A stretch of 64,000 nucleotides of DNA from Pontibacter harenae (lineage in GTDB: Bacteria > Bacteroidota > Bacteroidia > Cytophagales > Hymenobacteraceae), in NCBI RefSeq assembly GCF_020907245.1, contig NZ_JAJJWH010000004.1, forward strand, positions 1 to 64,000, written 5' to 3'. A program made the position numbers and the translations under genes. Position 1 is the first letter of the stretch; each line of letters begins with the position of its first letter. Below the pieces are notes generated by a model, which was given only the letters and a program-made list of their open reading frames with translations, was not told where the DNA came from and did no database searches. Positions 1 through 29,303 of this stretch are shown here, piece after piece.

Positions 1-85
1 AAAAATGCAAACATCATACATTGTGAACCACAACTAAAAATATTTTTGATGGCTTGCAACCATTGCCCCTGATTTAGAATCATAG

Positions 86-694
86 GTGTGGATGCATAAA
101 ATATATAAGCGCTTGAAGCTTTTTACAAAACCAAAATCAGAAGAGGACAGACTGATAGAAGGCTGCATTGCGGGCGAACGCGCCATGCAACGGCTCCTCT
201 ATGACCTGTACTCCAAAAAAATGATGATGGTTTGCCTGCGCTATGCTCCCACAAATTTTGAAGCCGAAGATATTATGCAGGAGGGGTTTGTAAAGGTGTT
301 TGCCAATGTCCAGAACTTTAAAAAAGATTGTCCGCTGGAGTTTTGGATTAGGCGTATTATGATCAATACAGCGCTGAAACATTTGCGTCAAAAATCGCTG
401 CTGACAGTGTCGCACGAGGCGGAAGAAGCTGTCAATATCAGTTCAGACAGCTTTAGCTTGTCAGGTTTTAGTATGGATGAATTGTTGAGCACCATACAAA
501 GTCTGGCCCCGCGCTACCGCATGGTATTTAACCTCTATGCTATAGAAGGCTACAACCATAAAGAAATAGGTGAAATGCTAGGCATTTCGGAAGGTACATC
601 TAAATCACAATACTCGCGTGCCAGGGCTATACTGCAAAGTATGCTGTCGCGTCAGGATAAATCATATCAAGAGCATGTCATCAGCAAGAGATAA
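86..694 (+). CDS. ECF-type sigma-70 family RNA polymerase sigma factor
   Basis: An alternative sigma factor that would direct RNA polymerase to a small regulon. Region 2 lies at about residues 35-105 (core FEAEDIMQEGFVKVF, then FWIRRIMINTALKHLR) and region 4 at about 130-185, where GYNHKEIGEMLGIS is the helix-turn-helix that reads the -35 element. The length of 202 aa is normal for the family. The frame opens with GTG at 86, but ATG at 92 (MHKIYKR) is equally possible; neither has a Shine-Dalgarno sequence. The gene overlaps the start of the next gene (ATG 675) by 20 bases, so the two are probably translationally coupled, and the downstream product looks like its membrane-bound partner. The target promoters cannot be read from the sequence. 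Confidence 0.93.
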   Translation: MWMHKIYKRLKLFTKPKSEEDRLIEGCIAGERAMQRLLYDLYSKKMMMVCLRYAPTNFEAEDIMQEGFVKVFANVQNFKKDCPLEFWIRRIMINTALKHLRQKSLLTVSHEAEEAVNISSDSFSLSGFSMDELLSTIQSLAPRYRMVFNLYAIEGYNHKEIGEMLGISEGTSKSQYSRARAILQSMLSRQDKSYQEHVISKR

Positions 695-2360
695 AAAGCA
701 CGGAGAGCTAGAAGAAGAGTTTCGGCACCTCATGCACGATGCTGAAGCGACCCCTTCGCCAGATTTGTGGGCTCGGATAGACCATGACCTTACGGTGATG
801 GAGAACAAAAAGTACAAAGAGCGTTTTGTGCTGTATAGGCAACTGGCCGCTGCCTGCTTTGTGCTGTTCATGTTGGCTGGAGCGCTTCTGACGTATCAAT
901 TTGCCGAAAATGGCGACAATTCAACTACTCCTTTGGCAGGATCTAACACAAGTGCTGGTAATGGAATAGCACTTGGTGATGCAACAACTGCCACACCTAA
1001 AGATGTAACTATAGCTGCCGCTGATGCAAATCCTGCCACAGCAGAGCCTTCTGTAAATGGTTTAGAAGCTACTGGATCAACTGCTGGCAGTGCAGTGCCT
1101 CAGGCTATGGCAATGCAGAAACCGACAGATAATAACAGCGGTGAGAGCTATAAAGCCGTAGCAGGCGAAAATACATCAAGCGCTGCAGGAACTTCCATAG
1201 CTACAGGAACTATGGCTATGACTTCAACAACTGATAGAACCGCAGAAGAGCTGGAGCAACCAGCTTCCAGGGCCATTTCGGCTAGAGCCCCTCAGATACC
1301 GCTTTACATAAAGGCCCGTGACGCGATTACAAGGGCTGGTGCTGGTAATGAGGCAGGAGCATCCGAAATAGTGCAGCCATTGGTGCTGCGTACACCTGGC
1401 CAAAGTTCGCTGGCGCAGCTGTTGAAAGAACAGACAGATGAGCAATCAGAAAGTTTACAAAACAAGCAGGTAGAAGCGCTTACACTAGCCCTGAACAGCG
1501 AAAGCAAACAAGGAGGCGGCGGCGATAATAGCAAGGAGTTCAACAGCCGCTGGAGTGTGGATATGGCCTATATGCCGTCTTACTTCAACCAAAATATAAA
1601 CCTGCCTAACCAGATGATGGGAGCTGTTGCCTACAGTAGCTTTGTGCCGCAAGGGCCTGCTGCTTCCAGACAATCTTCTGATAACATGGAGCAGGCACGT
1701 GAGGAATTCGATGAAAATACTAATGCCGCTTTCTCTTATTCTATGGAGGTGAAAACGGGCTTCAAAATTGGGAAGAAGTTTAAACTGCTGACGGGCGTAG
1801 GCTACAGCCAGAACACGGCTAAAACTAAAACAAGCTATGTGCTGGAGCAGTATTGGTTCAGGCCATCAACCAACGAGCGCTACGATCTTAACCCGACAAC
1901 AATCTTTCTGCCTTCGCTGAACAACAACTTCTCTACAGATTCGCTTAGCGTGGCACAGACAGATCCGTTTTCAGTTAATTACCGCTACCGCCTGCTTTCG
2001 TTGCCACTAGGGCTGCAGTACGAAGGTGACATAGCAAAAGACTGGTTCTGGTACAGTGCTGCGGGGGTAGCTGCCAACTTTCTGATAGAAACAGAGGTAG
2101 TGGCTGCAACTGACAGGGTGGAGGATGTGAGATACGGCTTCAGCGATGAATCTCCCTTCAGACGGGTGCAATTCTCAGGTAACATTGGTTTAGGCGTGGG
2201 CAAGCGCATTTCTAAGTCTATGCAAGTGGTGGTGGGGCCAGAGTTCCGACACTTCTTCTCGTCTATGTTATCGGCTCCAGACGAAGCCCTGACAACGCAA
2301 AGCAAGCCCTACACCATTGGTGTGAATATGGGTGTCAACTACCTGATCGGGAAGAAATAA
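675..2360 (+). CDS. Trans-envelope protein: anti-sigma-like N-terminus plus outer-membrane beta-barrel
   Basis: The frame is open from 618, but ATG 675 (MSSARDKKHG) is the likely start because it gives a sensible N-terminus just inside the sigma gene; length 561 aa. Residues 1-50 are charged, with the PSPDLWARIDHDL type of motif seen before the membrane helix of Bacteroidota anti-sigma-like proteins. Residues 53-76 form one hydrophobic helix (QLAAACFVLFMLAGALLTY). About 80-195 is a linker very rich in Ala, Thr, Ser and Gly, and 195-290 is still mostly polar. From about 293 (WSVDMAYMPSYF) to the end there are alternating strands and a PorT-like outer-membrane beta-barrel pattern (LLTGVGYSQN, RLLSLPLGLQY, GVAANFLI, GPEFRHFFSS). 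There is no cleavable signal peptide. Family knowledge supports a sigma/anti-sigma pairing; that one chain spans both membranes is my inference. Confidence 0.8.
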   Translation: MSSARDKKHGELEEEFRHLMHDAEATPSPDLWARIDHDLTVMENKKYKERFVLYRQLAAACFVLFMLAGALLTYQFAENGDNSTTPLAGSNTSAGNGIALGDATTATPKDVTIAAADANPATAEPSVNGLEATGSTAGSAVPQAMAMQKPTDNNSGESYKAVAGENTSSAAGTSIATGTMAMTSTTDRTAEELEQPASRAISARAPQIPLYIKARDAITRAGAGNEAGASEIVQPLVLRTPGQSSLAQLLKEQTDEQSESLQNKQVEALTLALNSESKQGGGGDNSKEFNSRWSVDMAYMPSYFNQNINLPNQMMGAVAYSSFVPQGPAASRQSSDNMEQAREEFDENTNAAFSYSMEVKTGFKIGKKFKLLTGVGYSQNTAKTKTSYVLEQYWFRPSTNERYDLNPTTIFLPSLNNNFSTDSLSVAQTDPFSVNYRYRLLSLPLGLQYEGDIAKDWFWYSAAGVAANFLIETEVVAATDRVEDVRYGFSDESPFRRVQFSGNIGLGVGKRISKSMQVVVGPEFRHFFSSMLSAPDEALTTQSKPYTIGVNMGVNYLIGKK

Positions 2361-2409
2361 TTTTATAGCGTATGCAACCGCTGCTGTAGTTGTAGGGTCA
2401 TGGTTATAG

Positions 2410-2958
2410 ATGAGGTTAAAGAGAAGAACAGCCTCAAACACTATAAAAATGAAAGCCTTACTTGAACTAAAAGCTAATCTACATGATGTTGTAGCCCTTT
2501 GTAAAGATAACCTATCGGGGTGGTATGTGTTGCTGGCTCTTTTTCTGTTTTCGATAATTCTAACAAGTTGCGAGGTAGAAGAAGTTAACCCGATGCTGAG
2601 TACCGATGCCACAAAGCAGGTTGTGATAGGGCGATGGTCTATTGAAAAAGTAGATTATGAACTTTGCAAGAATAGGGTGTGCAACACAACAAACTACAGG
2701 GGCAGCACCACCGACTATTTTGAGTTTAGAGCCGATAGTGCCGAGCTGGTGAAAGCCAACCTAACCACCAATCGGATAGCAGTAGAGCGGTTTAAAGTAG
2801 AATACACAAGGCCTGGTGTCTTTGTATTGTCGAACACAGCTTGGTCTGGGCGCTTCGAAATATTAGAGTCAAAATTCAACAAGTTAATATTGAAATGTTC
2901 TTTTACTGGAAGAGATCCTGGAGCTGTTTTTACAGACACCTATTATCTCTTCCAGTAA
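2410..2958 (+). CDS. Lipocalin-like lipoprotein
   Basis: A probable lipoprotein. A hydrophobic segment (VLLALFLFSIILTSC) ends in a lipobox whose cysteine would be lipidated, leaving EVEEVNPML as the mature start. The N-region before it is unusually long (about 40 residues); ATG 2449 (MKALLELK) would shorten it by 13. The mature part has the small beta-rich pattern of Bacteroidota lipocalin-like proteins: GRWSIEKVDYE, then FEFRADSAELV, then FKVEYTRPGVFVLS and GRFEILESKFNKLIL. The fold assignment is from pattern only. It follows the sigma / barrel pair by 49 bases on the same strand and may belong to the same operon or regulon. Its ligand is unknown. Confidence 0.7.
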   Translation: MRLKRRTASNTIKMKALLELKANLHDVVALCKDNLSGWYVLLALFLFSIILTSCEVEEVNPMLSTDATKQVVIGRWSIEKVDYELCKNRVCNTTNYRGSTTDYFEFRADSAELVKANLTTNRIAVERFKVEYTRPGVFVLSNTAWSGRFEILESKFNKLILKCSFTGRDPGAVFTDTYYLFQ

Positions 2959-3053: not shown

Positions 3054-3430
3054 ATGAAAAGTACTTTAATCACTGCCTTGCTTTATGTGTGCCTGTCTGT
3101 TTTAATAATTAGTTGCCAAGACAAAACGCCCCACCATCCTGTATAAAAGCAGAGGTGGTAGGCGGTGATTGCGAGGCTGGATGGTATATTCTGAAATTGG
3201 AAGAGAAGACTGCTATAGCTGGCCAAAGTAATGCGTACATTGGCATGATTCAGGGTGGATATGTAACAACAGACAACCTGCCAGCGCAATACCAGGCAAC
3301 AGGCGCAAAACTGGATTTGGCTGTAGAACTTAACGGCGAGTACAGCCCCAGATGCCTTACTGTTGCAGTCATGTATCCAGCGGTTCGAGTAAAGAAAGTG
3401 TGTAGCAGCAACGATGTAACACAGCCATAG
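3054..3430 (+). pseudogene. Small lipoprotein gene interrupted by a frameshift
   Basis: ATG 3054 begins a clear lipoprotein signal peptide (MKSTLITALLYVCLSVLIIS, then the lipobox cysteine and QDKTPHHPV) that stops at TAA 3144-3146. A long open stretch continues one frame away, from about 3113 to 3430 (PSCIKAEVVGGDCEAGWYIL ... VCSSNDVTQP), and has no good start of its own. Adding one base near 3120-3140, for example in the AAAA or CCCC runs, would join the two into a lipoprotein of about 125 aa with several cysteines. So this is a recent pseudogene or a sequence error; a programmed -1 shift is less likely because I see no classic slippery heptamer. It lies directly after another lipoprotein gene. 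Function unknown. Confidence 0.7.
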
Positions 3431-28706: not shown

Positions 28707-29303
28707 ATGAGCGAGCAAACAGGTAAACAGATGAGTAAAGAGGAGAAAGACGCAAGGTTTGAGGCCGAGCTGCTTCCTGTGCTTGATCCTCTGTATAACT
28801 TTGCATATAGGCTCACTTTGGATGAAGACGACGCGAACGACCTGGTACAGGAGACATATCTGAAAGCCTACCGCTTTTTCGATTACTTTGAACAAGGAAC
28901 TAATGCAAAAGCATGGCTGTTCCGAATCCTGAAGAACTCGTTCATAAACGAATTCCGAAAAAAGAGCAAACAACCTGCTAAGGTAGATTATAGCGAAGTA
29001 GAAGGTTATTACAACACCGAAGACGTAGAGGGCGAGAGTGGCGTGGCCACCACCACCGATATGCGTACTGAAAGTGTGCAGGATTTGATAGGCGATGAAG
29101 TGGCGAGTGCCCTGAATGCGTTGCCTGTAGATTTTAGAACCGTCATTATACTTTGTGACCTAGAAGGTTTTACTTATGAGGAAATGGCCAAGATCTTGGA
29201 CATCCCCATTGGTACAGTGCGTTCAAGACTGCACCGTGCTCGAAATTCTTTAAAAGAGAAGTTGGAAAAATATGCTAAAAGCATGGGTTATAATGGTGAA
29301 TAA
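28707..29303 (+). CDS. ECF sigma factor, RpoE-like
   Basis: A second ECF sigma factor (198 aa) of the RpoE-like group widespread in Bacteroidota. Region 2 is at about residues 30-100 (DDANDLVQETYLKAYRFF and the promoter-melting AKAWLFRILKNSFINEF), region 4 at about 130-190 (LDIPIGTVRSRLHRARNSL). The region between the two is acidic and extended. The start ATG 28707 (MSEQTGKQMSKEEKD) follows the TATATTTG element. The next gene encodes a zinc-type anti-sigma factor, 18 bases on, and then gmk and nadD, so this stress regulator is tied to nucleotide metabolism genes in one operon. Confidence 0.95.
   Translation: MSEQTGKQMSKEEKDARFEAELLPVLDPLYNFAYRLTLDEDDANDLVQETYLKAYRFFDYFEQGTNAKAWLFRILKNSFINEFRKKSKQPAKVDYSEVEGYYNTEDVEGESGVATTTDMRTESVQDLIGDEVASALNALPVDFRTVIILCDLEGFTYEEMAKILDIPIGTVRSRLHRARNSLKEKLEKYAKSMGYNGE

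Follow-up and report, generated by a model that had tools for sequence, protein, structure and literature searches.

An ECF sigma factor gene and the gene overlapping its end, close to the start of the window (the whole 64,000-nucleotide stretch of Pontibacter harenae DNA that was analysed), are, as judged from sequence and structural modelling, a sigma/anti-sigma module of the Dma (dual membrane-spanning anti-sigma) type, a design already known from gut Bacteroides. Computation supplied the homology to the Dma family, the architecture of the chain, its topology signals, the linkage to a sigma gene, and a promoter-like element with its placement. In the scheme that we infer, to which we give a probability of roughly 0.8, two short cytoplasmic helices would bind the ECF sigma factor and hold it at the inner membrane, one helix would cross that membrane, a long unstructured tether would cross the periplasm, and a C-terminal 8-stranded barrel, inserted in the outer membrane in vivo, would act as the sensor; an altered or poorly inserted barrel would be the signal, disturbing the chain until its integrity is lost and the sigma factor is let go, and the freed sigma factor would use TTGCAACC-N18-TCATA to switch on small lipoprotein genes as well as the operon that encodes it. 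New here is the promoter-like element, which lies before the sigma gene and again after the dma gene, mostly ahead of a small lipoprotein gene. The features are as follows.

54..84, + strand: promoter-like element before the sigma gene; TTGCAACC at 54-61, 18 nt, TCATA at 80-84; from an alignment of 36 genus loci, with at most 2 mismatches in 36/36
113..694, + strand: gene for the ECF sigma factor, probably starting at a TTG; GTG86 opens the longest ORF
675..2360, + strand: dma-type gene, 561-aa ORF, product P0002; from ORF, Pfam, AlphaFold2 model and homology
675..833, + strand: predicted cytoplasmic anti-sigma domain, residues 1-53; modelled helix 9-21 and start of helix 29-80, homologous to the Dma2-operon protein, putatively sigma-binding
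834..902, + strand: predicted inner-membrane helix, around residues 54-76; includes AAA (58-60), every one of the three conserved to 90% or more in profile A1 (window homologues, Bacteroides sequences excluded)
903..1544, + strand: predicted periplasmic tether, residues 77-290, mostly disordered and unconserved; from model and identity profile
1545..2357, + strand: predicted 8-stranded outer-membrane-type barrel, residues 291-561; from Pfam, model and structure comparison
2372..2402, + strand: second copy of the element, ATGCAACC-N18-TCATG, 2 mismatches, 11 bp past the dma stop; the shorter pattern matches exactly
2449..2958, + strand: small lipoprotein-like gene, lipocalin-like via one relative; predicted direct sigma target
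3054..3430, + strand: second small lipoprotein gene, frame-broken in the assembly

Architecture and topology of the gene pair

The sigma protein matches Pfam regions 2 and 4 and TIGR02937, and its longest ORF (86-694) shares 20 bases (675-694) with the P0002 ORF; the first-pass annotation had described both the ECF sigma factor and the overlap correctly, but had started the sigma gene at GTG86. A TTG is aligned at position 113 in 36/36 genus loci (in 33 at an identical distance from the stop, in 3 displaced by 3-6 bases) and the promoter-like element ends at 84, so the start is probably TTG113 and the sigma factor about 193 aa long.

P0002 was modelled with AlphaFold2 from an alignment of 47 sequences (mean pLDDT 72, pTM 0.56). 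The model places helices at residues 9-21 and 29-80, leaves residues 81-290 mostly at pLDDT <50 with one low-confidence, doubtful helix at 244-274, and folds residues 293-558, mostly at pLDDT >90, into 8 long strands, plus two short ones of 3-4 residues. OMP_b-brl_2 of Pfam matches residues 338-509 (E 3.7e-7), and in structure comparison the modelled barrel scores VIA Z 15-17 against OmpA, NspA and Legionella porin III (NspA: Z 16.5, 154 residues, rmsd 2.9); a PDB sequence search with P0002 gave no match up to E 1. The first-pass annotation had proposed an inner-membrane helix with the N-terminus inside, a flexible linker of about 200 residues and a C-terminal barrel, and had named structure prediction of 675-2360 alone as a check; the model of two helices, a disordered stretch of about 210 residues and an 8-stranded barrel of OmpA/NspA-like fold agrees with it on the helix, the linker and the barrel.

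Only one hydrophobic segment is present in P0002, at about residues 54-76 (placed at 57-75 in a second delimitation). In 112 of 114 sigma partners, a set that includes a few barrel-less proteins, the 15 residues ahead of this segment hold more lysine and arginine than the 15 that follow; the resulting N-in topology is a prediction from hydropathy and charge. The segment begins at residue 41-62 (median 56) in 113 of the 114, the exception being L150 (108, no clear segment). An n-region that long exceeds that of the usual Sec signal, which makes such a signal unlikely for P0002, and no Sec-type cleavage site past the membrane helix was apparent by eye. The annotation had held that a cleaved signal or a missing barrel would tell against it; we found a modelled barrel, and a long n-region with no such site in view.

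Mean identity to the window protein among 36 genus members is 0.61-0.65 in the N-terminal domain, which is ungapped across the genus, 0.70 in the membrane helix and 0.55 in the barrel; it falls to 0.14 over residues 77-204 and 0.09-0.22 over 205-290, a low conservation that, in sequence terms, is what a tether should look like. From the end of the membrane helix to the start of the barrel profile, the distance is 89-352 residues (median 206) in 101 proteins, once three with values <40, in which the barrel profile was badly aligned, were dropped. Close to where the membrane helix begins (in P0002 at residues 58-60, window about 846-854), 104 of the 114 sigma partners carry an Ala-Ala-small motif, which by eye is also present in barrel-less relatives.

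Kinship with Dma2 and distribution

Pardue et al. (PNAS 2024) is said to be the source for Dma1/Das1 and Dma2/Das2 of Bacteroides thetaiotaomicron. With these the window pair shares an anti-sigma domain, one TM helix, a disordered tether, a C-terminal barrel and an adjacent ECF sigma factor. In the published account, Dma proteins consist of these same parts and are read as one chain across both membranes, their genes adjoin ECF21 sigma genes and are limited to Bacteroidota, and dma2 is surrounded by das2, DUF4943, DUF4858 and a gene resembling enoyl-ACP reductases/nitronate monooxygenases (PMC13088901).

Profile A1 matches the Dma2-operon protein in 12/12 named loci (E 2e-18 to 2e-27, Z 4000), and profile A2 matches the sigma gene in the same 12; these loci were selected as relatives of the Bacteroides ihuae Dma2-operon protein (L122). 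DUF4943 and DUF4858 genes follow dma2 in all 12, and a nitronate monooxygenase gene was found in 7/12. Dma2 orthologues were recognised by operon order, and the comparison runs via them rather than via B. thetaiotaomicron's own protein. By hhalign, A1 aligns with the B. ihuae Dma2-operon protein at 99.0% over residues 7-77, and with L148, a second Dma-type protein of that genome and perhaps Dma1, at 95.7% over the barrel only. A search for DUF4943 at E 0.001 picked out 7 genomes among the 295 of the class; in two of these A1 matches the neighbouring gene, and their gene order agrees with the published locus tags (L122 by Pfam, L123 by reading). The B. ihuae protein was modelled from alignment A3, which includes P0002 among other rows (mean pLDDT 69.5), and shows the parts of P0002: a pair of N-terminal helices, then a disordered stretch, then 8 long strands. 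Because A1 matches 12/12 Dma2 loci and the B. ihuae orthologue has the same parts, the window design is of the known Dma kind. One chain bridging both membranes, as the first-pass annotation proposed, is the reading that best fits sequence, model and homology, and it is also how Dma is read in the literature; the arrangement is not new.

Searched against two Bacteroides-type genomes, the sigma profile scores highest on the sigmas encoded next to Dma-type genes. Conversely, among the sigmas of the window's own genome three stand at near-equal distance from the B. ihuae Dma2-linked one: the window's is second (2.1e-28), that of the barrel-less L158 pair is best (2.6e-29), and matches beyond the three are at 1.2e-12 or weaker.

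The window's host belongs to a different order of the same class from Bacteroides, and in its family the protein is near-universal, beyond chance: a P0002 relative at E 1e-5 or better occurs in 149/150 genomes, and in 48/241 genomes of the order sample, 20 of them outside the family (the window's own genome counted in both). Profile A1 matches 81/296 genomes of the phylum sample, with no more than 4 candidates per genome scored and part of the matches confined to the N-terminal region or the barrel. P0002 has one match at E 0.01 in its own genome; a plasmid search gave no P0002-type match, and a first scan of genome contigs found no relative.

An ECF sigma gene lies beside the Dma match in 134/134 loci chosen on such matches (114 distinct; 84 from family/order matches, 30 from the phylum sample and 20 more), as the annotation had expected of homologues. 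Spacing ranges from 58 bp apart to 38 bp of overlap; the genes overlap in 36/36 genus loci, by 17 bp in 33, and by 17 bp in B. ihuae also. The barrel and anti-sigma halves share one open frame in nearly all barrel-type homologues. The dma ORF is split in L036, L050 and L062, and the sigma ORF in L031 and L067. The link to an ECF sigma factor is as strong as adjacency can show, and the two are presumably a cognate pair. Covariation between the sigma factor and the N-domain was 0.265, barely above the maximum of 0.262 in 20 partner-swapped nulls, with a slight excess in sigma region 2 (113 pairs, Neff 52); no natural sigma-Dma fusion was apparent among the sigma matches in 5 genomes.

Dma function is reported, in the literature found, from B. 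thetaiotaomicron only, and the published Dma1/Dma2 phenotypes may not carry over to this lineage; the homologue described here, near-universal in a different lineage and accompanied by named candidate target genes and a conserved promoter-like element, allows Dma sensing and release to be put to the test in other bacteria.

The promoter-like element and its lipoprotein neighbours

The upstream alignment of the 36 genus loci gives CTTGCAACC, 18 nt, TCATA and then the aligned TTG; since the element was defined there, the upstream count of 36/36 is not independent. After dma it recurs in 34/36 loci at up to 3 mismatches and 27/36 at up to 2; control windows, some of which may hold true sites, contain it at up to 3 mismatches in 102/2160. 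Outside the genus it precedes the sigma gene in some loci (e.g. L032, L033, L036, L060, L063) and is absent from many; it was not found before the sigma gene in Bacteroides loci (4-5 mismatches at L122, L123, L148 and L149). Locus L178 holds a third site within the dma locus of its genome.

In 20 genus genomes there are 58 exact matches to TGCAACC-N18-TCATR, against 16 for the reversed pattern; 29 of the 58 are at sigma or dma-downstream sites and 29 elsewhere. Those elsewhere number 8 against 10 reversed in the first 8 genomes and 21 against 6 in the next 12, so the extra-locus number is only modestly above the control, and placement is the unusual feature. A looser promoter pattern, run on 6 genomes, was useless alone (3 matches in the window's own genome, 3 in the control).

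Behind dma in the 36 genus loci the next gene is a small lipoprotein gene, which, classed by reading, is lipocalin-like in 14, NigD-related in 5 (L084 by comparison, the other four by eye) and of a third type in 15; the remaining two have no ORF within 500 bp. The lipocalin-like relative at L080 matches Lipocalin_4, whereas the window copy (2449-2958) matches no Pfam family; a lipoprotein of another genus (L056) matches NigD_N and shares 40% identity with the L084 lipoprotein across 91 residues. In window 3054-3430 the signal-peptide frame that begins at 3054 terminates prematurely, and the remainder is read in a different frame (3113-3430); relatives have intact copies.

Beyond the dma loci, 24 of the 29 extra-locus matches were scored, the five with no fetched locus being left out, and 11 of these lie 5-200 bp before a lipoprotein-like ORF, compared with 0/10 reversed-pattern sites and 95/6000 random window positions. 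A first, stricter rule (5-120 bp) had given 9/24, 0/10 and 30/4000 before it was eased and extended to 200 bp; L178 and L198 look lipoprotein-like by eye but failed both rules. The binomial p of 3e-14 is too small, because orthologous sites among the 24 (L213/L214, L216/L232, L217/L220/L231/L233) are not independent. One of the two extra sites in the window's own genome precedes a serpin (Serpin, E 1.2e-115) whose signal is lipoprotein-like, and the other a 134-aa lipoprotein-like ORF with no Pfam match. At L217, L220, L231 and L233 the element is kept about 195 bp before a gene starting MRTFT, not scored as a lipoprotein.

NigD1 is required for vesiculation of the dma1 mutant of B. thetaiotaomicron (PMC13088901). 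The output of the B. thetaiotaomicron Dma proteins includes NigD1 for Dma1 and the DUF4943/DUF4858 genes beside dma2, and the predicted output of the window pair likewise includes lipoprotein or unknown-function genes; it differs in its TTGCAACC-N18-TCATA element and downstream lipocalin-like lipoprotein, and, from Dma1-NigD1, in that a NigD_N-related gene stands downstream in just those 5/36 genus loci. By analogy with Dma1-NigD1, we picture an autoregulated outer-membrane sensor with a lipoprotein output, and the parallel hints that the Dma-to-lipoprotein link is old. A literature link of the element or the lipoprotein set to a Dma pair was not found, in a search that covered the subscription literature thinly.

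Barrel-less relatives, sigma release and comparison systems

Only one of the three near-equal sigmas in the window's genome, the window's own, has a barrel partner; the others pair with proteins of 305 and 214 aa that have no barrel match (L158 4547-6018 and L159 3515-4756, both ECF sigma/anti-sigma-like pairs). Barrel-less relatives also occur in L134-L137 and L151, each beside an ECF sigma gene. All of these have an N-terminal domain and TM helix like the window's, although A1 matches L134-L137, L151 and L158 and not the 214-aa protein of L159; their periplasmic part is disordered or helical-looking, in place of the window's barrel. That they share the N-terminal part suggests, at the level of sequence, a common scaffold that can carry any of several outer ends, the barrel among them as an exchangeable sensor module. 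The first-pass annotation had considered that homologues with the halves as separate, unlinked genes would count against it: anti-sigma relatives with no barrel do exist, but those seen adjoin ECF sigma genes. When 62 sigma rows were placed in a tree, the window sigma clustered with those linked to a barrel; the tree's minimum is one change of barrel state, a value that depends on an unresolved root and long branches, and we therefore claim no number of changes. L150 (1422-2914), with a sigma gene followed by a barrel ORF that has no N-domain match and no clear TM helix, is perhaps a Dma3-like arrangement.

How the sigma factor would be released is where the readings part. The annotation supposed that the barrel could act directly on the sigma factor, by a mechanical pull or a conformational change passed along the tether, with no proteolysis. 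One continuous chain would permit this, but we think it unlikely: a tether as variable in length (89-352 residues) and as unconserved as this one speaks against finely tuned pulling, and the Ala-Ala-small motif would also fit intramembrane cleavage, although barrel-less relatives carry it too. Proteolysis of the chain after disturbance of the barrel seems to us more likely than pure pulling. Were the chain instead cut routinely after insertion, the barrel and the anti-sigma domain would act apart and the fusion would ensure only their co-production; barrel-less relatives, two pairs of them in this genome, imply that the anti-sigma half can work by itself, yet the halves stay in one frame in nearly all barrel-type homologues (split ORFs in three) and no Sec-type site after the helix meets the eye, and we rate this as quite improbable. 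It is scarcely credible that P0002 is an ordinary outer-membrane protein with a mis-read start and no anti-sigma role, as might be supposed from the barrel, which alone matches a common Pfam family; within the genus the N-terminal part is as well conserved as the barrel (0.61-0.70 against 0.55, no gaps), it matches the Dma2-operon protein, and the gene overlaps the sigma gene in every genus locus.

A broader proposal can be put forward, one that we hold to be possible but doubtful: the Dma pair might be a core, single-copy outer-membrane sentinel of this Bacteroidota branch, whose barrel is a client of the barrel-insertion machinery, so that failed insertion would free the sigma factor and TTGCAACC-N18-TCATR would turn on surface and periplasmic lipoproteins (lipocalin-like, NigD-like, serpin). 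If true, this would give the phylum its own equivalent of the sigma-E/RseA response, with exchangeable sensor modules on one anti-sigma scaffold.

In FecA/FecR/FecI cell-surface signalling, receptor and anti-sigma factor are separate proteins and the receptor is TonB-dependent. There too an outer-membrane protein governs an ECF sigma factor across the envelope, whereas the window would do so with one chain and a small 8-strand OmpA-like barrel; no TonB or FecR family was found in P0002 up to E 1 (Pfam), and FecR/TonB-transducer signalling was set aside because the barrel is in the same chain as the anti-sigma part. No anti-sigma family was found in P0002 by Pfam up to E 1 either. The model has two N-terminal helices, the second continuing into the membrane, compared with four in the class I (RseA-type) domain. 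CnrY, a class II anti-sigma factor, has a two-helix domain that wraps its sigma factor, and the same source gives class I partners nearby for only 6% of Bacteroidetes ECFs (PMC7406223). The window protein may resemble CnrY in its two-helix cytoplasmic domain, a likeness of modelled helix count, and the 6% figure is in line with other anti-sigma classes being at work in Bacteroidetes. Elsewhere in the window, positions 28797-29276 on the + strand hold a further, distant ECF sigma factor match (E 8.9e-6).
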